DNA from: Actinomycetes bacterium
GTDB lineage: Bacteria > Actinomycetota > Acidimicrobiia > Acidimicrobiales > Ilumatobacteraceae
Direction of reading: 5' to 3'
Assembly: GCA_027491335.1 (NCBI GenBank)
Contig: JAIXWJ010000053.1
Span: forward strand, 1-64,000
DNA length: 64,000 nucleotides
Numbering within the stretch: the stretch's first letter is position 1; each line of letters begins with the position of its first letter. The notes beneath the pieces are model-generated. The model had not been told where the DNA came from and made no database searches. It saw nothing but the letters and a program-made list of their open reading frames with translations. Below, in pieces: positions 2-44,144 of the stretch. The position numbers and the translations under genes are program-made.

Positions 2-598
2 GCGCCCACCGGATTGGTGTTGTTCCCTGGCTCGGGCTCGGGATCCGATCACTCCTCGCTGATCGCCATCGAACAGCGCATGTCGCCCCTGCCGGTGGGG
101 CGTTACGACTTCGACTATCGGCTGGCGGGCAAACGCGCCCCCGATCGCCCGCCGAAGTTGTTGGCGCGAGTGCGCGAATGCGCGCGCGAGTTCGCCACCG
201 CCAACGCCACCAAGCACGACACCGCCATCGCGGGTTTGGTGTTGGGTGGTCGCTCCATGGGCGGACGCATCTGCTCGATGGTGGCCGCGGGCGTTCCCGA
301 CATTGATGGTGAGCCGGCCATGCCGGTGCGCGGGCTGGTGTTGGTGTCGTATCCGTTGCATCCGCCGGGCAAGCCCGAGAATCTGCGCGTCGAACATCTG
401 CCGCGCATCACGGTTCCGTGTCTGTTCGTGCATGGCACCAAGGACGACTTCGGATCACCCGACGAGTTACGGAAATTCACCGCCACCATTCCGGGCGCCG
501 TCACGCATCACTTCATCGAGAACGGTCGTCACGACCTGAAGAACAAAGACGCGATCATCGCCGACGTCATCGCCGACTGGATGTCGTCACTCGTCTGA
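2..598 (+). CDS. Alpha/beta hydrolase (KANL3/Tex30-like), 5' end outside window
   Basis: The frame is open from the first bases, so the N-terminus lies to the left of the window; about 198 codons are visible. The fold is an alpha/beta hydrolase. A nucleophile elbow reads GGRSMGGR (Ser), an acid region reads HGTKDDFG, and a late His sits in GRHDL. Spacing and the LVLFPGSGSGSDH start resemble the KANL3/Tex30 dienelactone-hydrolase-like group, whose substrates are mostly unknown. It is convergent with the MFS gene, with four bases between the two stop codons. The stop codon lies inside a 16-bp tandem duplication. No specific reaction can be assigned. Confidence 0.8.
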   Translation, partial: APTGLVLFPGSGSGSDHSSLIAIEQRMSPLPVGRYDFDYRLAGKRAPDRPPKLLARVRECAREFATANATKHDTAIAGLVLGGRSMGGRICSMVAAGVPDIDGEPAMPVRGLVLVSYPLHPPGKPENLRVEHLPRITVPCLFVHGTKDDFGSPDELRKFTATIPGAVTHHFIENGRHDLKNKDAIIADVIADWMSSLV

Positions 599-616
599 TT
601 CGTCACTCGTCTGATT
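585..616. repeat. Perfect 16-bp tandem duplication across convergent stop codons
   Basis: The unit cgtcactcgtctgatt occurs at 585-600 and again at 601-616 with no mismatch. The first copy holds the last codons and stop of the hydrolase. The second copy holds the stop and C-terminal codons of the minus-strand MFS gene. Confidence 0.95.
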
Positions 617-2183
617 CGTCGCGCGTGACGGGCAACGTGTGGTCCTCGGGATTGAGTTCCTCCAACTCGCGGCGCGCCGTCTCCGGATAGGTGAAGGCCA
701 CGATCAGCGCCACCACCACCGGCCCGCTCACCAACGCCAGCATCACCGGCCCGTACGGGGTGCCGCCATCCACGATGGCTCCGGTGAGCAACAGCGACAC
801 GCTTCCGCCCACCAAGGCGCTGGCCAGAATCAGATACGCGGCGCGACCGCGATTGCCGGTGGGGAACAGTTCCGTGCGGTACACGGCCAACGGCGGGTAA
901 CTGGTGGCCGCGATGATCGCGCCGATGATGGCACTCCACCACATCAACGGTCCCGAGAACCAGAACGACAACGCGATCAACAGTGCACCGGTGGGTGCGC
1001 AGATCACGGCCAAGCGTCGTCGCCCGGATCGATCGGCCACGCGACCGCCGATCACCAAACCGATCACGGCCGGGGTGGCGGTGACGATGGTGAACAGCGA
1101 CACCATGCCCGCCGAGAATCCGCGCTCGTCCTTCAGGAACGTGTTCTGAAAGAACGAAGCCGGTGACAACAACATGTTGCCGAAGAAGGCCACCGCCATC
1201 TGCACGGCCAAACGTCGCCGTTGCAGCGGTGGCACGGGCGTGGCCGCCGCGTCGGACTTGTGCCACTCGAAGCGCTTCGTCTCGGGTAGATGTCGAGCCA
1301 GATCTCGCGCCACCAACAACCACACCAATCCCAACACGTACACCCAACGCCAACCGGACTGACCCACATCGGCCAACGGCAACGCCACCACGGCCACGCC
1401 GGCTCCCAGTCCGTTGGCCATGGCCAACACGCTGATGGCGTAGGCGCGCGAACCGCGTGGCATCTCCTCGGCGGCGATGACCGCGATCAACAGATCGAGA
1501 GCCAACCCGAGCGGCCGACCGAGCGTTTGTGTGGCCACCAACAACGGGAAGTTCGGTGCCACCGCGCCCAACGACGCGATGATGGGCGCGGCCCACGCCA
1601 AGGTCACCACCACGCGTCGACGTCCGATGCGATCGGCCAACAGTGCCGCGGGAAGTCCGAACAGAATGCCGATGCGCACGATGGTTCCGGCCACACCGCG
1701 ACCCCAATCGCCCACGCCGAAGTCGTCGCCGGCGAACGACACCGTCTGGGTGAACAAGGTGTTCACGAAGGCGGTCAACAACGATGCCGCGGCCAACAAA
1801 CCGAGGATGCGCACCTGTCGTTGGTCCAGTCGATCGGGTGGGGCCCAGCCGGGTTGTCCCTCGCGCGACTGCGGTGATCGACGCGCGATCGACCGACGCA
1901 CCAACGGCCCGAACAACCAATGGAACCACGGGATCACCAATCGGTAGTCGGTGCGTTCGTGCAGCCGCCCCTCGCGCGCGGTGACGGTGCGGCGGTATTC
2001 GCGGAACGGTCCGTGCTGTTGCGCGAACGAAACCGCGTCGAGTTCATGGCCGGTCACGCCATCGTCATCACCAACAACAACCACGGTCTCGCGCACCAGA
2101 TCATCGTGCGGGGCGGTCAACCAGGCCCTCACCTGCGGTTCGTCGGGCCAGTCGCGCACCAGATGCACCCCGTTGCGACCCAC
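603..2183 (-). CDS. MFS transporter with a soluble N-terminal extension
   Basis: A 526-residue protein. Hydrophobic segments begin near residue 123 and continue to about residue 505, giving roughly twelve membrane helices. Two MFS loop motifs are visible, LLADRIGRRR in the first half and GGRVADRSGRRR in the second, typical of sugar/metabolite-type carriers. The first ~120 residues are hydrophilic (for example EYRRTVTAREG) and are not part of the usual fold. The start is GTG at 2183, only 23 bp from divergent murA, and a later start is possible, which would remove the extension. Substrate unknown. Confidence 0.85.
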   Translation of the reverse strand: MGRNGVHLVRDWPDEPQVRAWLTAPHDDLVRETVVVVGDDDGVTGHELDAVSFAQQHGPFREYRRTVTAREGRLHERTDYRLVIPWFHWLFGPLVRRSIARRSPQSREGQPGWAPPDRLDQRQVRILGLLAAASLLTAFVNTLFTQTVSFAGDDFGVGDWGRGVAGTIVRIGILFGLPAALLADRIGRRRVVVTLAWAAPIIASLGAVAPNFPLLVATQTLGRPLGLALDLLIAVIAAEEMPRGSRAYAISVLAMANGLGAGVAVVALPLADVGQSGWRWVYVLGLVWLLVARDLARHLPETKRFEWHKSDAAATPVPPLQRRRLAVQMAVAFFGNMLLSPASFFQNTFLKDERGFSAGMVSLFTIVTATPAVIGLVIGGRVADRSGRRRLAVICAPTGALLIALSFWFSGPLMWWSAIIGAIIAATSYPPLAVYRTELFPTGNRGRAAYLILASALVGGSVSLLLTGAIVDGGTPYGPVMLALVSGPVVVALIVAFTYPETARRELEELNPEDHTLPVTRDESDE

Positions 2184-2206: not shown

Positions 2207-3496
2207 ATGGACCGCGTCGCAGACCGCATCGTCGTGCAGCGCAGTGGTCCGCTCACGGGAGAAGTCGACGTCCCCGGCGCCAAGAACTCGGTGCTGAAAT
2301 TGATGGTGGCCTCGCTGTACGCGCCGGGTCGACACGAACTCACCAACGTCCCCGATATCTCCGACGTGGAAACCATGGGTGCCCTTTTGGGTGCGCTCGG
2401 CGTGCGCGTCGTTCGCGACGACGTCGACGACGCGGTGCTGCATCTGCACAACGACGGCGACGTGCGAACGGTGGCGCCACCCGACCTGGTCACCAGCATT
2501 CGCGCGTCCATCAACGTGCTCGGCCCGTTGTTGGCGGTGCGCGGACGCGTGCGTCTCGACATGCCCGGCGGTGACGACTTCGGTTCGCGTCCCATCGACA
2601 TGCACATCGCCGGCCTGAAAGCCATGGGCGTCGAGTTCGACATCGATGACCAATCGATCGCGGCTCGCGTGGATCGACTGCGGGGCGCCGACATCGTGCT
2701 CGACTTCCCGTCGGTGGGCGCCACCGAGAACTTGGTGACCGCGGCCGTGCACGCCGAGGGTCTCACCACCATCACCAACGCCGCGCGCGAGCCCGAGGTG
2801 GCCGACCTGTGCGAGCTGTTGGTGGAAATGGGTGCGCGCATCGACGGCATTGGTTCCTCGGTGCTTCGTATCGAAGGCGTCGAACGCGGTTCGCTGGTTC
2901 CGGTGTCGCACGCCGTGGTGCCCGATCGCATTCAGGCCGCCACCTATCTGGCCGCCGTGGCGGTGGCCGGTGGTACGGCCGTGGTGAAGGGCGCGCGCGC
3001 CGATCACATGGTGGTGTTGTTGAATCGCATGCACGACATGGGCCTGGAATTCTCCGTGGTGCCCGGGGGAATCGAGATTCGTTCCGAGGGCCGCATGCGC
3101 GCCGTCGACGTGCAGACCCTTCCGTATCCGGGGCTGGCCACCGACTACAAGCCGCTACTCGTCACCATGCTGGCCGTCGCCGAGGGCATGGGCATCGTCA
3201 CCGAGAATCTGTATCCGGGTCGCTTCCGATACGTGGAGGAACTGTCGAAGTTGGGTGCCGACATTCGCACCGACGGTCATCACGCCATCGTGCGTGGCAT
3301 GGAACGTTTGCGTGGCGCCGCGGTGGTGGCGCCCGACATTCGCGCCGGTGCCGCGTTGGTGATCGCCGGTCTGGCCGCCGAGGGTCGCACCGTGATCTCG
3401 GGCATCGAGCACATCGACCGGGGTTACGACGACCTGGTGGGTCGCTTGGTGGCGTTGGGTGGCTCGGTGGCGCGCGCCAACTCGGCCGATCTCTGA
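2207..3496 (+). CDS. murA: UDP-N-acetylglucosamine 1-carboxyvinyltransferase MurA
   Basis: Catalyses the first committed step of peptidoglycan synthesis, transferring enolpyruvate from PEP to UDP-GlcNAc in the cytoplasm. 429 residues, the usual length. Conserved features: GAKNSVLK (Lys26/Asn27, matching E. coli K22/N23), ATDYKPLL (the Asp general base), and DIRAGAALVIAG (Arg equivalent to R397). The catalytic-loop cysteine of E. coli (Cys115, in PGGCTIG) is Asp123 here (PGGDDFGSRP), as in mycobacterial and chlamydial MurA, which are intrinsically fosfomycin resistant. Start ATG 2207; there is no clear Shine-Dalgarno. The stop lies in the first copy of a 16-bp tandem repeat. Confidence 0.97.
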   Translation: MDRVADRIVVQRSGPLTGEVDVPGAKNSVLKLMVASLYAPGRHELTNVPDISDVETMGALLGALGVRVVRDDVDDAVLHLHNDGDVRTVAPPDLVTSIRASINVLGPLLAVRGRVRLDMPGGDDFGSRPIDMHIAGLKAMGVEFDIDDQSIAARVDRLRGADIVLDFPSVGATENLVTAAVHAEGLTTITNAAREPEVADLCELLVEMGARIDGIGSSVLRIEGVERGSLVPVSHAVVPDRIQAATYLAAVAVAGGTAVVKGARADHMVVLLNRMHDMGLEFSVVPGGIEIRSEGRMRAVDVQTLPYPGLATDYKPLLVTMLAVAEGMGIVTENLYPGRFRYVEELSKLGADIRTDGHHAIVRGMERLRGAAVVAPDIRAGAALVIAGLAAEGRTVISGIEHIDRGYDDLVGRLVALGGSVARANSADL

Positions 3497-3540
3497 CTCA
3501 GTCGATCCCTGATTCAGCCGATCTCTGACTCAGCCGATCT
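3485..3540. repeat. 16-bp tandem repeat, 3.5 copies, starting in the murA stop region
   Basis: Copies: 3485-3500 gccgatctctgactca, 3501-3516 gtcgatccctgattca, 3517-3532 identical to the first, and 3533-3540 a half copy. The murA stop TGA (3494-3496) is in copy one. The stop of the minus-strand small gene (3530-3532) is in copy three, so the repeat joins both 3' ends. Confidence 0.95.
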
Positions 3541-7010: not shown

Positions 7011-7017
7011 TGGGAGC

Positions 7018-7089
7018 GTGAACGAACGACCGATCGTGAATGGTCAACCGGCCGTGAATGGTCGACCGGCCGTGAATGGTCAACCGTCG
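7018..7089 (+). repeat. 18-bp tandem repeat, four copies, beginning at the azlC start codon
   Basis: Copies start at 7018, 7036, 7054 and 7072, each opening with an in-frame GTG. The last three are gtgaatggtcaaccggcc with few changes; the first is diverged. They encode MNERPI-VNGQPA-VNGRPA-VNGQPS, so the protein start is a repeat tail and several GTG codons could serve as start. Confidence 0.93.
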
Positions 7090-25448: not shown

Positions 25449-26212
25449 CCAAGCGCGATCGCATCGAGGAGGAGAAGCGTTTCCTGTTCGATTCGTTGGC
25501 CGATCTCGAACGTGAACACGCCGCGGGTGACGTGGACGAGCACGACTACGCGGCATTGAAGGATTCCTACACCGCGCGGGCGGCTCGACTGATCGCCGAA
25601 CTCGAGGCGACTCCGAGCACCAAGACCGGCGCGCGTCGGCCGCGCAACATCATCTGGGCGGTGTCGGTGGTGGTGTTGGCGGTGGTGAGTGGCGTGTTGG
25701 TGGCGAGCAACAGTGGCGAGCGACGAGAGGGCCAGGTGATGACCGGCACCATCGACGACAGCAACGTGAGCTCGTTGTTGGTGCAGGCACGGTCGATGGG
25801 CATGTCCGACATTCCCACCGTGCTCGACCTGTACTCGCGCGTGTTGGCGATCGAGCCCGACAACATCGAAGCACTCACGTATTTCGGATGGTTCAGCGTG
25901 TTGTCGGCCACTCAAGAGACCGACGAGGCGCGAGCGGCCGAACGACTGGAATCCGGTCTGGTGTTGATGCGACAGGCGACGATCACCGATTCCACGTATC
26001 CCGACGCGCACTGCTTCCTCGGCATCACGTTCTTCCGTTTCCTCGACGATGCACCAGCGGCCAAGCCCGAGGTCGACACGTGCCTGTCGTCGAATCCGCC
26101 CGCCGAAGTGGCCGCGTTGGTTCAAGGTTTGGCCGATCAGATCGACGAAGCCATCGCGAACGATTCGTCCGCGTCGAACGAGTCAGGCGACTCGACGACG
26201 TCCGTTCCCTGA
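25445..26212 (+). CDS. ccmI: CcmI-like TPR protein
   Basis: 255 residues. The N-terminal coiled-coil-like segment (RDRIEEEKRFLFDSLADLER and following), a membrane helix (IIWAVSVVVLAVVSGVLVA) and a TPR-like C-terminal half (LDLYSRVLAIEPDNIEALTY) match the CcmI layout, which presents apocytochrome c to CcmFH. Last gene of the operon; GTG 25445 overlaps the ccmH stop. The C-terminus is low-complexity Ser/Asp/Thr and its stop codon lies in a 14-bp tandem duplication. Confidence 0.82.
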   Translation: MTKRDRIEEEKRFLFDSLADLEREHAAGDVDEHDYAALKDSYTARAARLIAELEATPSTKTGARRPRNIIWAVSVVVLAVVSGVLVASNSGERREGQVMTGTIDDSNVSSLLVQARSMGMSDIPTVLDLYSRVLAIEPDNIEALTYFGWFSVLSATQETDEARAAERLESGLVLMRQATITDSTYPDAHCFLGITFFRFLDDAPAAKPEVDTCLSSNPPAEVAALVQGLADQIDEAIANDSSASNESGDSTTSVP

Positions 26213-26224
26213 CGTCCGTTCTCC
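26197..26224. repeat. 14-bp tandem duplication across the ccmI stop
   Basis: gacgtccgttccct (26197-26210) is followed by gacgtccgttctcc (26211-26224), with further partial gacgttc copies up to about 26243. The stop TGA (26210-26212) straddles the junction. Confidence 0.85.
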
Positions 26225-26240
26225 GACGTTCTGACGACGT

Positions 26241-28599: not shown

Positions 28600-29367
28600 G
28601 TGTCCACGAGCCGCCCCTCACCGAGCCCGGCATCCGGTCAATCGTCACTCTCGACCGCTTCGTCGACTAACGGTTCGTTCACGGCCACGGTGGCCGCCAT
28701 CACCAACGCGTTCGGTGATCCCACCCGCCGCGCGATCTATTTGTTCGTTCGGGGCCGCGAGGAGGGCGTGACCGCCTCCGATGTGGCATCCGAGTTCGGT
28801 CTGCACTCCAACGTGGCTCGGCATCACCTCGACAAGCTCACCGTGGGTGGTTACGTGGAGGTCACGGTGTCGCGCGTGGCCGGAGGAGGCGCGGGTCGAC
28901 CGGCCAAGCGCTACACGGCGGTCGCCGAACTCCCGATGGGCGAATTCCCGGTGCGCAGCGACGACCTGGTGCTCAGTTTGTTGGGCAAGACGCTGGCCCT
29001 GTTGCCGGCGGATCGCGCCGAGACCATCGCCGAGGAAGTCGGGCACGAGTACGGGCGCGCGATGGCCGCGGCCATGACCGGCTCGGATTTGGCGGCCGGA
29101 CAGCGCAGTTTGCGTTCGGCCATGCAAGCCGTTGCCGACGCCCTCACCGCGCATGGTTTCGCGGCGCACACCGAGAAGCGCAACAACCAGTTGCGCATCA
29201 TCAACAATCACTGCCCGTTCGGTGACGTGGCCATCGAGCATCCGGTCATTTGCGCCGTCGACCGGGGAATGGTGAAGGGAATGTTGGCCGCGCTCTACGG
29301 CGACGCCGACGTGTCCACCATCGAATCGCTCCCGCAGGGCAACACCTTCTGCGCGACTGCGGTCTGA
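28600..29367 (+). CDS. Winged-helix transcriptional regulator, SufR-like
   Basis: 255 residues. N-terminal winged helix (FGDPTRRAIYLFVR, then TASDVASEFGLHSNVARHHL and the wing RVAGGGAGRPAKRY). The C-terminal half has three cysteines, a C-X12-C pair (HCPFGDVAIEHPVIC) and a last one in GNTFCATAV, about 32 residues on. This resembles the Fe-S-sensing SufR repressors of suf operons. It is divergent from mrp, an Fe-S carrier, which fits regulation of Fe-S assembly, but no suf genes are in the window and the cysteine spacing is not identical to cyanobacterial SufR. The Ser-rich start is poorly conserved. Confidence 0.78.
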   Translation: MSTSRPSPSPASGQSSLSTASSTNGSFTATVAAITNAFGDPTRRAIYLFVRGREEGVTASDVASEFGLHSNVARHHLDKLTVGGYVEVTVSRVAGGGAGRPAKRYTAVAELPMGEFPVRSDDLVLSLLGKTLALLPADRAETIAEEVGHEYGRAMAAAMTGSDLAAGQRSLRSAMQAVADALTAHGFAAHTEKRNNQLRIINNHCPFGDVAIEHPVICAVDRGMVKGMLAALYGDADVSTIESLPQGNTFCATAV

Positions 29368-29417
29368 GTTCGCGCGAGCGGTAGCGTCTTCGTCACCAGG
29401 CCTTCAGGAGGAGCACC

Positions 29418-29648
29418 GTGGACATTCGTATCGGCGTGACGCAAGCGGTCCGTGAAATCACCCTCGAGCAAGCCGACGGTGAGCACGACGCCACCAAGGC
29501 CAAGATCGAAGCAGCGTTGTCCGGAGCGGTGGACGTGTTGTGGCTCGTCGACAAGAAGGGCCGCACGGTGGGCGTTCCGGCCGCCAAGATCGCCTACGTC
29601 GAGATCGGTTCCACCGACGGCGAACGGCGCATGGGTTTCGGCGCCTGA
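29418..29648 (+). CDS. DUF3107 family protein
   Basis: 76 residues. MDIRIGVTQAVREITLEQAD at the start and VGVPAAKIAYVEIGSTDGER near the end with terminal MGFGA are the family pattern, found almost only in actinobacteria and without a known role. GTG 29418 has a clear AGGAGG ribosome site about six bases upstream, so this gene is not leaderless. The stop lies in the first unit of a 30-31 bp tandem repeat. Confidence 0.9.
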   Translation: MDIRIGVTQAVREITLEQADGEHDATKAKIEAALSGAVDVLWLVDKKGRTVGVPAAKIAYVEIGSTDGERRMGFGA

Positions 29649-29748
29649 GCCGAACCCGAGATTCGTTTTCGGCGCCTGAGCCGAACCCGAGATTCGTTTT
29701 CGGCGCGTAGCCGAATCCGAGATTCGTTTTCGGCGCCTGAGCCGAACC
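29639..29748. repeat. 30-31 bp tandem repeat, 3.6 copies, starting at the DUF3107 stop
   Basis: Units at 29639-29669, 29670-29700 (identical), 29701-29730 (one base shorter, a few changes) and partial 29731-29748. Each begins cggcgcctgagccgaa or a variant and ends gattcgtttt. The first includes the last two codons and TGA of the gene, so the stop is copied in later units. There are no unique spacers, so it is not a CRISPR. Confidence 0.96.
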
Positions 29749-29798
29749 TGTGGCGGGGATGACTCCGCGCCTCTCTCCGGTGGGGCAGACTCGTAGGC

Positions 29799-31280
29799 AT
29801 GGCGACGCTTGCCGAACTCATTCGTCAGCACACCGACATCTCCAAGGATGACACGGCTCACCTTCAGCAGTTGATCGGCGAGTGGGGAATGCTCGCCGAC
29901 CTGTGCTTCGCCGACATGCTCCTGCATCTTCCGTCGACGAGCGGTTCGTGGTTGGTGGGCGCCCAGGTGCGACCGGCCACCGGACAAACCATTCACCGAA
30001 CCGACCTCGTGGGCACCGAGGCCAACGCCGACGAGAAGACTCTTCTCGCCGATGCCTTCGCGTCAGGACAGATTCGCGAAGGTGAGTTGAACAAGCAAGG
30101 GATCTCCGACTCGGTGCAGGTGTTGGCCATTCCGGTGCGCGGCGAGAACGGACCGGTGGCGGTCCTCACCCGTGAGTGGAGTTCCAAGACCAGCCGTCAA
30201 CCCGGTGAGCTGGAGCGCACGTATCTGTCGATCTTCCATCGCTTCGCCGAGATGATCGCGCAGGGCGCGTTCCCGTTCGCCGGTCGCGCCGCCGACCTGT
30301 CGGCGGCCCCGCGCGTGGGCGACGGCGCGGTGGTGCTCGACGACAACGCCGTGATTCGTTACGCCTCGCCGAACGCGGTGTCGGCGCTTCACCGTGTGGG
30401 CATCACGTCGAACGTGGTGGGACAGGCGCTCAGTGAACTCGGTTTCGCCGACAGTCCGGTGCGACAGGCGTTCGAACGCATGGAGCCGGTCATCGAGGAG
30501 TTCGAGCAAACCGCTGACGTCACGTTGTTGGTGCGTTGCATCCCGATTCTCTCCGACGATGTGGTCACCGGGGCCATGCTCCTCGTGCGCGACGTCACCG
30601 AGTTGCGTCGCCGCGATCGCATGTTGTTGTCCAAGGACGCCACCATTCGCGAGATCCATCACCGCGTGAAGAACAACCTGCAGACGATCTCCTCGCTGTT
30701 GCGATTGCAGGCCCGCCGTTTGGAGTCACCCGAGGCCAAGGCCGCGGTGCAGGAGAGTGTTCGTCGCATCCGCACCATCGCGCTGGTGCACGAAACCCTG
30801 TCGCGCGAGCCCGGCGACGACGTGGCCTTCATCGAGATCGTGCGTCCGTTGATGCGTTTGGCCGAAGAGGGCCTGCAATCGCCCGATCGCCCGGTGCGTT
30901 TCATGGTGCAAGGCGACGGAGGTCGTCTGCCGGCCACCATCGCCACGCCGTTGTCGGTGGTTCTCACCGAGTTGTTGCAGAACGCGGTGGATCACGGCTT
31001 CCCGGAAGGCAGTGAGGGCGGCACGGTGGTGGTCGATCTCGGTGGCGACGACGACGAGATCGCCATCAGAGTGGTCAATGACGGCCGCGGTTTGGATCCC
31101 GGCTTCGATCTGAATGGAGCCACCGGACTGGGGCTCTCGATCGTGCGCACTCTGGTGACCACGGAATTGAACGGCACCATCTCCATTCGACCCGGAGCCC
31201 CCGAGGACTTCATCGCGGTCGGTATCGAAGGTCAGCGTCGCGGGGACGGCACGGTCGTCGATCTGCGCCTTCCGCGCTGA
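29799..31280 (+). CDS. pdtaS: Sensor histidine kinase, PdtaS-like (HWE/HisKA_2)
   Basis: 493 residues. A GAF-like domain (about 1-150), a PAS-like domain (about 170-270), the HisKA_2 phosphoacceptor IREIHHRVKNNLQTISSLLR and a HATPase domain with LTELLQNAVDHG and GATGLGLSIVRTL. This is the layout of mycobacterial PdtaS, which signals through an ANTAR-domain RNA-binding regulator (PdtaR). No partner regulator is adjacent. ATG 29799 has CAGACT seven bases upstream, so it may be leaderless. Confidence 0.88.
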   Translation: MATLAELIRQHTDISKDDTAHLQQLIGEWGMLADLCFADMLLHLPSTSGSWLVGAQVRPATGQTIHRTDLVGTEANADEKTLLADAFASGQIREGELNKQGISDSVQVLAIPVRGENGPVAVLTREWSSKTSRQPGELERTYLSIFHRFAEMIAQGAFPFAGRAADLSAAPRVGDGAVVLDDNAVIRYASPNAVSALHRVGITSNVVGQALSELGFADSPVRQAFERMEPVIEEFEQTADVTLLVRCIPILSDDVVTGAMLLVRDVTELRRRDRMLLSKDATIREIHHRVKNNLQTISSLLRLQARRLESPEAKAAVQESVRRIRTIALVHETLSREPGDDVAFIEIVRPLMRLAEEGLQSPDRPVRFMVQGDGGRLPATIATPLSVVLTELLQNAVDHGFPEGSEGGTVVVDLGGDDDEIAIRVVNDGRGLDPGFDLNGATGLGLSIVRTLVTTELNGTISIRPGAPEDFIAVGIEGQRRGDGTVVDLRLPR

Positions 31281-35469: not shown

Positions 35470-35474
35470 GTTTC

Positions 35475-35538
35475 CGGCCGTCAGGCCGCCAATGTTTCGG
35501 CCGTCAGGCCGTGTTCATTGCGGCCTTAGGCCGTGTCC
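35475..35538. repeat. 23-bp tandem repeat between etfA and the next convergent gene
   Basis: Units at 35475-35497 and 35498-35520 and a partial at 35521-35538, each opening cggccgtcaggccg or a close variant. The partial unit contains the TAA stop of the minus-strand gene (35526-35528), and on that strand each other unit carries TGA in the same place. The ggcc inner palindrome could also form small hairpins. Confidence 0.9.
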
Positions 35539-36539
35539 CGGGCCAACAGCCCGAACGACAGTCCGTCGATCGGATCGACGGCGATGAGGCTCAATTCGTA
35601 GCCCGTCGTCGTCGCATCATCGAATCGGAACCACTGCAAGCTTTCGCTCACCGCTCCGAGTTCGTTGCCGAGTTCGCCCTCGTTCACGAGATCGTTCCAG
35701 TCGTCGGCGATTCCACCGAGTGCGGCCAACATCCACCACGTACCGAACCGTCCAAGAGCGCCTCCTCGACGACGGCCGTGTGCACCACCCGACGCTCCGC
35801 ACCACGCGAGCCACGCCAACGCATCGCGGGCTTCGATGCTCGTCAGTCGTGCGGAGGTGAGGCCCAATGCTCGCAACGCGTTCGACGCGTCACCCTCGAC
35901 CGCCACGGACTCGGCGCGTCCATTGGACGACGACGTCCACGGCTCCACCAACGAACGAAGGGCCGAGGCCACGTCGGCGTCGTCGATGTTGGTGGCCGAC
36001 GCGGCGGCGGTGACGAGGGTCCAGTCGTGATGCCACGAGTCCGATGGACATGGTGACTCCACTCCTTCGTCGCCGTACACCGGAACCGCGTACGCGGGTT
36101 CCCAGTCGAGAAGGGTCAACGGCAGATCGAGATCGTCGTCTTCGATGTTCGGCACGTCTCCACGCAGAACGCGTTCGTGGGCCACGAACGAACGACGAGG
36201 CCCGCGCTCGAGAAACGCAGCCAGGTCGGCCCACGTGTGATGTTGGGCGATCACCTCGGTCAATGGTCCGATGGTGAAGCGTCCGCCGTCTTCGCCCAAC
36301 ACGGAACAGGCCGACTCCGCCGGAGCCAACAGAGCGATGCGGTACTCGGCCAACGTGGCCGCGGGCCACACCTGACGGCCGGTCTTGGTGGCGGCTCGAC
36401 AGCGGGCGCGCACGCGCATCAGGCCTTCCCAATCACGCGACGCGCATCGGCCATCGATCAGTCGCACCAGTCCGTCCAGGTCGGCACGGTCGACGAGCCG
36501 ATCGAGTTCGTCGTCGTTCTCGGGGCGATCGTCGGACAT
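35526..36539 (-). CDS. Unknown conserved-type protein, last gene of the DUF3090 operon
   Basis: 337 residues, acidic, soluble, no signal peptide or membrane helix. The N-terminal third looks helical (DLDGLVRLIDGRCASRDWEG, then LMRVRARCRAATKTGRQVWP), and a later conserved-looking segment is FGTWWMLAALGGIADDWNDL. I do not recognise a family. It sits six bases after the SCO1664-like gene, where many actinobacteria have mshC (mycothiol ligase), but it shows no tRNA-synthetase-like motifs (no HIGH or KMSKS), so it is not MshC. Confidence 0.75.
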   Translation of the reverse strand: MSDDRPENDDELDRLVDRADLDGLVRLIDGRCASRDWEGLMRVRARCRAATKTGRQVWPAATLAEYRIALLAPAESACSVLGEDGGRFTIGPLTEVIAQHHTWADLAAFLERGPRRSFVAHERVLRGDVPNIEDDDLDLPLTLLDWEPAYAVPVYGDEGVESPCPSDSWHHDWTLVTAAASATNIDDADVASALRSLVEPWTSSSNGRAESVAVEGDASNALRALGLTSARLTSIEARDALAWLAWCGASGGAHGRRRGGALGRFGTWWMLAALGGIADDWNDLVNEGELGNELGAVSESLQWFRFDDATTTGYELSLIAVDPIDGLSFGLLARDTA

Positions 36540-43718: not shown

Positions 43719-44128
<410 letters not shown>

Positions 44129-44144
44129 TGTCTCGTCGTGACGT

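Follow-up and report, generated by a model that had tools for sequence, protein, structure and literature searches.

The tandem repeats at gene ends in this genome are most likely ordinary bacterial minisatellites, which probably arise by slipped-strand misalignment and persist, through tolerance, chiefly around stop codons and 3' of them; we give this reading a probability of about three in four. It builds on the arrays themselves, on stop codons recopied more often than chance allows, on orthologous gene ends with one or fewer copies, on copy numbers that differ between species, and on the within-species homogenization of an array at the end of a DUF3107 gene. Slipped-strand misalignment, as the inferred molecular event, would duplicate short stretches at gene ends; the copy-number differences are those between species. 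A duplication inside a gene would have to keep the frame and one at a start would disturb the start region, and arrays would last mostly at and beyond stops because a stop-spanning duplication leaves the protein unchanged. Tolerance would explain where the arrays lie, and they would be homogenized by gaining and losing copies again and again rather than by gene conversion.

Repeats at gene ends of the window

The window, a stretch of 64,000 nt, is contig 18 of its source genome (G000), a 94.6% complete 2.52-Mb draft of an uncultured actinobacterium. Ilumatobacteraceae/Acidimicrobiales-type lineages such as this one are typical of fresh water. The region around the DUF3107 gene is organized as follows.

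29418..29648, + strand: DUF3107 gene, 76 aa (gene call; PF11305, E 2.2e-21), TGA stop at 29646-29648
29636..29748, + strand: stop-spanning tandem array, TRF period 31, 3.7 copies, 92% matches, score 205
29637..29667, + strand: copy 1, 31 bp, opening with 12 nt that hold the final codons and actual TGA stop of the gene
29668..29698, + strand: copy 2, 31 bp, TGA at 29677-29679
29699..29728, + strand: copy 3, 30 bp, TAG at 29708-29710, the codon that ends the gene itself in G004 and G012
29729..29748, + strand: copy 4, partial, TGA at 29738-29740
29749..29798, + strand: gap between array and kinase gene, with a genus-conserved block (GGGCAGACTCGT..) at its end (12 loci compared)
29799..31280, + strand: downstream gene for a PdtaS-like sensor histidine kinase (PF12282, PF07568)

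The last codons of the DUF3107 gene, TTC GGC GCC TGA, fall inside the first repeat unit, and units of 31, 31 and 30 bp are followed by the partial fourth. The array is real and, as originally predicted, the largest of the window, where its score is the highest that TRF returns. The further claim that the TGA stop is copied 3.6 times holds for copies 1, 2 and 4; copy 3 reads TAG, so TGA is not copied there. The genus-conserved block is kept between the array and the kinase start, and the array thus sits in a gap able to grow. Upstream of the PdtaS-like gene in L016 (G003), a motif like GGTATGACT occurs about three times in the gap, where the downstream promoter may lie.

The same prediction named four other stop-anchored repeats, at 585-616, 3485-3540, 26197-26224 and 35475-35538. 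The first two do copy stops; the third only overlaps one, and the fourth consists of palindromes. TRF delimits the following arrays.

584..620, no strand assigned: two-stop array, 16 bp x 2.3, 100% matches, over convergent stops 596-598 (+) and 603-605 (-), 4 bp apart
3480..3540, + strand: array at the end of an EPSP-synthase-family gene, 16 bp x 3.8, in which TGA is copied three times
26196..26229, + strand: weak array over the stop at 26210-26212, 14 bp x 2.4, score 54
44070..44133, - strand: array in the ammonium transporter / P-II gap, 15 bp x 4.3, starting 11 nt after the stop, which is uncopied

The stop is copied in the 584-620 array, and that at 3480-3540 also covers the stop at which a small, convergent ORF ends. 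The other copies at 26196-26229 read CGA at the stop position, so that stop is not copied. TRF lists no array at a score of at least 30 at 35475-35538; 35470-35540 holds three GGCC-type palindromes (GGCCGTCAGGCC twice and a variant once) 3' of an electron-transfer-flavoprotein-like gene and begins after its stop. This looks like a hairpin cluster and is possibly a terminator. We note that a called gene begins with a tandem repeat of 18/36 bp (7017-7086), almost all of it within the coding frame.

Comparison of gene ends between species

A DUF3107 match is present in 59 of 61 genomes, G000 included, and G015 is without one. Thirty loci were retrieved from the 59 genomes; 24 gene ends were read by eye and 29 were checked with TRF, one locus cut by a contig end being excluded. 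The stop carries a repeat in six species: G000, G002, G023, G012 and G008, with 3.0 to 5.7 copies by TRF, and G004, whose 1.6 copies TRF missed. The G004 repeat is seen by eye and gives 14/15 in a word test that works without TRF (15 nt ending in the stop must recur with at least 12/15 matches within the next 60 nt; expectations come from permuted pairs). No array was found at the DUF3107 stop in 16 other genomes of the genus or in 7 from other genera of the family. In a three-gene tree the six array species are neighbors; five are grouped with support of 0.999, and the joining of G004 to them is nearly unsupported (0.112). In an actinobacterium further removed (L270, 10208-10297), the DUF3107 stop is likewise spanned by an array, with a 34-bp unit, which looks like an independent origin. 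In the gap 3' of DUF3107 in L024 (G033), a 23-bp doublet whose copies begin ATGACC reaches the next start codon; it is a duplication at a start, not at a stop.

Retention of the DUF3107 repeat in 6/6 neighboring species is not demanded by simple neutrality and counts against slippage with tolerance as a complete account. It would fit arrays that are weak RNA hairpin clusters, ending transcription or protecting mRNA 3' ends and kept for that role, a possibility that we regard as unlikely. The 181-nt DUF3107 stretch folds better than its shuffles (z -2.38, 3/200 as good), the TTCG...CGAA arms of the unit are kept in all six species, and hairpin clusters near stops are reported as terminators in PMC8355165, which describes repeated structures close after stops much as seen here. 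Unlike those terminators, gene ends with arrays show no more structure than the rest: 20 ends average -13.89 kcal/mol and 874 other ends -13.37 kcal/mol (P 0.80), so hairpins stronger than those of ordinary gene ends, as expected of intrinsic terminators, do not mark them. The suggested birth of terminators from these repeats is not supported by this comparison. Moreover, 29200-30100 holds no terminator-like site, an Rfam search gave no match at E <= 1, some arrays have no clear hairpin by eye, and the 16 other genus genomes read lack the DUF3107 array. Loss of SbcCD was considered as a cause of hairpin instability and rejected. SbcD exceeds the family cut-off in 0/24 genus genomes, with weak matches in 4/24 (many of these genomes are incomplete, and the control search matched 13/14 known genomes, only 8 of them over the cut-off); such a genus-wide result cannot explain arrays in one group.

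Each array species has its own, nearly uniform DUF3107 unit. Among 18 full units, mean identity is 0.986 within species (23 pairs) and 0.796 between species (130 pairs); the coding sequences of the array species are 83-98% identical. The Ser codon TCC of the G008 gene end is found in every copy of its array, and the TAG stop recurs in the two copies of G004 and, counting the incomplete final one, in three out of four in G012. This is concerted evolution at DUF3107 that extends into the coding gene end, stop type included, together with the noncoding copies, and the array has been renewed time and again in the six related species. One G000 copy still reads TAG, which suggests a TAG-to-TGA change of the gene's own stop via the array and so provides a worked case in which a stop-codon change may have moved through a repeat. 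A bolder version, that in this Ilumatobacteraceae-related group the last codon and the stop type (TAG/TGA) are rewritten from the array, aided by duplication favoring 3' ends and perhaps kept for a 3'-end function, is rather unlikely.

Further gene ends were picked for an array in G000 or G012, read by eye and then run through TRF, which listed none of the by-eye repeats below about 1.9 copies; because of this selection, the sites are uninformative on rates. At the end of a phosphatidate cytidylyltransferase-like gene (CdsA, below the family cut-off), the stop is present in two copies in G000, three in G023, two in G008 and one each in G004 and G012, within an otherwise conserved context, and the repeat is absent in eight other genomes. 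Copy number, which the original prediction proposed to compare between close strains, differs here between related species. The FtsR (NF050798) end carries 2.3-5.3 copies of a 25-bp unit in G000, G002, G023, G008 and G012, and none in G015 and seven others; in G004 a direct repeat of 7 bp, GGGTCGC, flanks a single copy. Together these ends form a natural series of one, two, three and more copies, from the birth of a minisatellite at a gene end to its homogenization. Direct repeats that could have seeded an array are clear at FtsR only, which is a point against slippage.

A rubrerythrin-like gene (below cut-off) ends in 2.6 copies of 47 bp in G012. The end is recopied by eye in G000, G004, G023, G008 and G015, with 14/15 (G008) and 15/15 (G015) in the word test; G002 has a different 17-bp doublet spanning the stop, and none was seen in nine other genomes. 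Three ends carry their array in G000 alone. One belongs to the EPSP-synthase-family gene, presumably MurA from its motif (16 genomes; four of the 15 others are sisters, which show weak resemblance at most to a seeding repeat). Another belongs to a chorismate-mutase-like gene (13 genomes), whose copies read CAG where the gene has TAA, and the third, a 15-bp triple, to a molybdopterin-type oxidoreductase gene (14 genomes), where an imperfect 13-bp doublet is seen by eye in some sisters. Across 21 genomes, the ammonium-transporter gap has an array just after the stop in G000 and others, with different units, in G009 and G016, which lie outside the group of G000; it is unrepeated in five sister species. 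These differing units indicate a gap free to duplicate with or without the stop. In the flanks of the orthologue loci, the word test matched 13/129 stops in neighboring species, all at loci preselected for arrays (one is a probable false gene on the opposite strand of the same array), and 0/206 in the rest of the genus.

Arrays and stop codons across the genome

The association with stops was measured in 1,043,100 bp (41%) of G000, in which a home-made gene caller placed 898 stops. Among arrays touching at least 8 noncoding nt (a threshold that leaves out five with stops and four with starts, two of these with both), 17/43 contain a stop. Random positions, the check named with the original prediction, lead one to expect 7.64, and 0/2000 placements reach 17. 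Thirteen of the 17 recopy the stop one period on. Starts are contained in 5/43 arrays (9.49 expected), and the stop excess remains when start-proximal DNA is excluded (14/24 arrays, 4.6 expected). It declines as longer gaps are dropped, from 16 stop arrays against 10.08 expected in gaps of up to 400 bp (P 0.015) to 15 against 10.45 at 250 bp (P 0.043), and at 150 bp there is no excess (14 against 11.99, P 0.24). That the noncoding-wide enrichment shrinks solely on omission of long gaps is a further point against tolerance as the whole explanation.

In the word test, the stop-word is recopied 17/894 times in G000 (0.9 expected) and the 15 nt right after the stop 16/894 times (1.75 expected), which do not differ (Fisher P 1.0); start-words are recopied upstream 6/888 times (1.35 expected), less often than stop-words (P 0.034). 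In-gene arrays have periods divisible by three in 129/139 cases, stop arrays in 7/17. Array density is 1.38 per kb in convergent gaps (10 arrays), 0.51 in co-directional (19) and 0.44 in divergent ones (11). Frame-keeping within genes, its lack at stops and array-rich convergent gaps are what slippage acting everywhere and filtered by selection would leave.

Outside G000, stop-words are recopied in 3/382 cases in G012, 1/359 in G019, 1/303 in G035, 4/405 in other Acidimicrobiia and 3/318 in other Actinomycetota. Pooled, these five sets (12/1767) fall below G000 (Fisher P 0.009), and G012 by itself is indistinguishable both from G000 (P 0.22) and from background. Stop-containing arrays number 2/3 in G012 (1.13 expected), 0/3 in G019 (0.48), 2/15 in G035 (3.49), 6/20 in other Acidimicrobiia (2.53) and 4/38 in other Actinomycetota (4.02); the last two locus sets were fetched by DUF3107 similarity, so the L270 array at that gene is among their matches. 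A mixed genus-like set of 17 loci (0/15 arrays with a stop, 1/211 stop-words) was left unused because gene calling missed DUF3107 genes there.

These counts bear on the idea that a lineage-specific process, linked for instance to transcription termination or R-loops, targets gene 3' ends and duplicates them, which we consider quite improbable. Stop enrichment over all noncoding DNA, the raised recopying in G000 and the several array loci common to neighboring species would agree with it. However, the adjacent downstream words are recopied equally often, short gaps hold no excess of arrays, the sister G012 gives no sign of a clade-wide rate, and the array counts from the other five sets speak against it. 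No result marks the stop codon as a target, and slippage together with the tolerance of 3' ends is explanation enough. Of the predicted mechanism, a duplication of gene 3' ends rather than a mobile family, the contrast with mobile repeats stands, given the single-locus core of the DUF3107 unit and the unrepeated orthologues, and slippage fits it; a process aimed at stops is not supported. Stop-anchored repeats call for caution, since tolerance can produce them with no dedicated system at work.

Selection of the copies as back-up stop codons, another of the predicted effects, is very hard to credit. The DUF3107 array does contain stops in three frames in G000, G023, G012, G008 and G002, though not in G004. 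A period divisible by three is nevertheless confined to the minority of stop arrays counted above, G023 and G012 have no second in-frame stop within 200 nt, and the next one in G000 lies 114 nt on. An assembly artefact at DUF3107 is barely conceivable: although the six repeat-bearing genomes are drafts of ~40-400 contigs, the repeat is found at this locus in all six, which were assembled separately and differ in their units, five of the six match MAG contigs with different accession prefixes, and the G000 copies are non-identical.

Relation to known repeats

The arrays share the marks of VNTRs or minisatellites, with short units arranged head to tail, copy numbers that vary between related genomes (here, between species) and, for the DUF3107 unit, whose core was searched genome-wide, a unit specific to its locus. 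The original prediction knew of no named system of this kind, yet PMC3689786 reports 88 VNTRs in Yersinia pestis, 10 overlapping stops and 6 starts. Their units are locus-specific, 84.1% measure 7-21 bp, and 24 in-gene ones are divisible by three; the authors remark that the protein might be less affected when copy number changes over a stop. The gene-end arrays described here resemble them in locus-specific units, stop overlap and in-gene periods divisible by three, and belong with these stop-overlapping VNTRs. That paper deals with variation among strains, whereas the present data concern species differences and long-lived concerted evolution at DUF3107. Persistence and homogenization of a gene-end array across six species were not found described in open-licence papers.

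The MIRUs of mycobacteria are likewise short gene-junction repeats tied to start or stop codons, but, in PMC12548453 and by general account, they are an apparently mobile family, dispersed and inserted at start codons. In G000 the unit differs from site to site, and the one unit searched genome-wide is not dispersed over many sites. A mobile repeat was accordingly rejected for DUF3107: with up to 2 mismatches, the sole locus of the 18-bp unit core in G000 is this array, and one array pattern had no match in viral_contigs.

Outside the array group, repeats of 38-39 bp that share a CTCTCCCCG core and resemble one another recur in three species (L214:4949-5078, L215:3815-3945 and L217:5096-5182); they may represent one repeat that is shared or dispersed.
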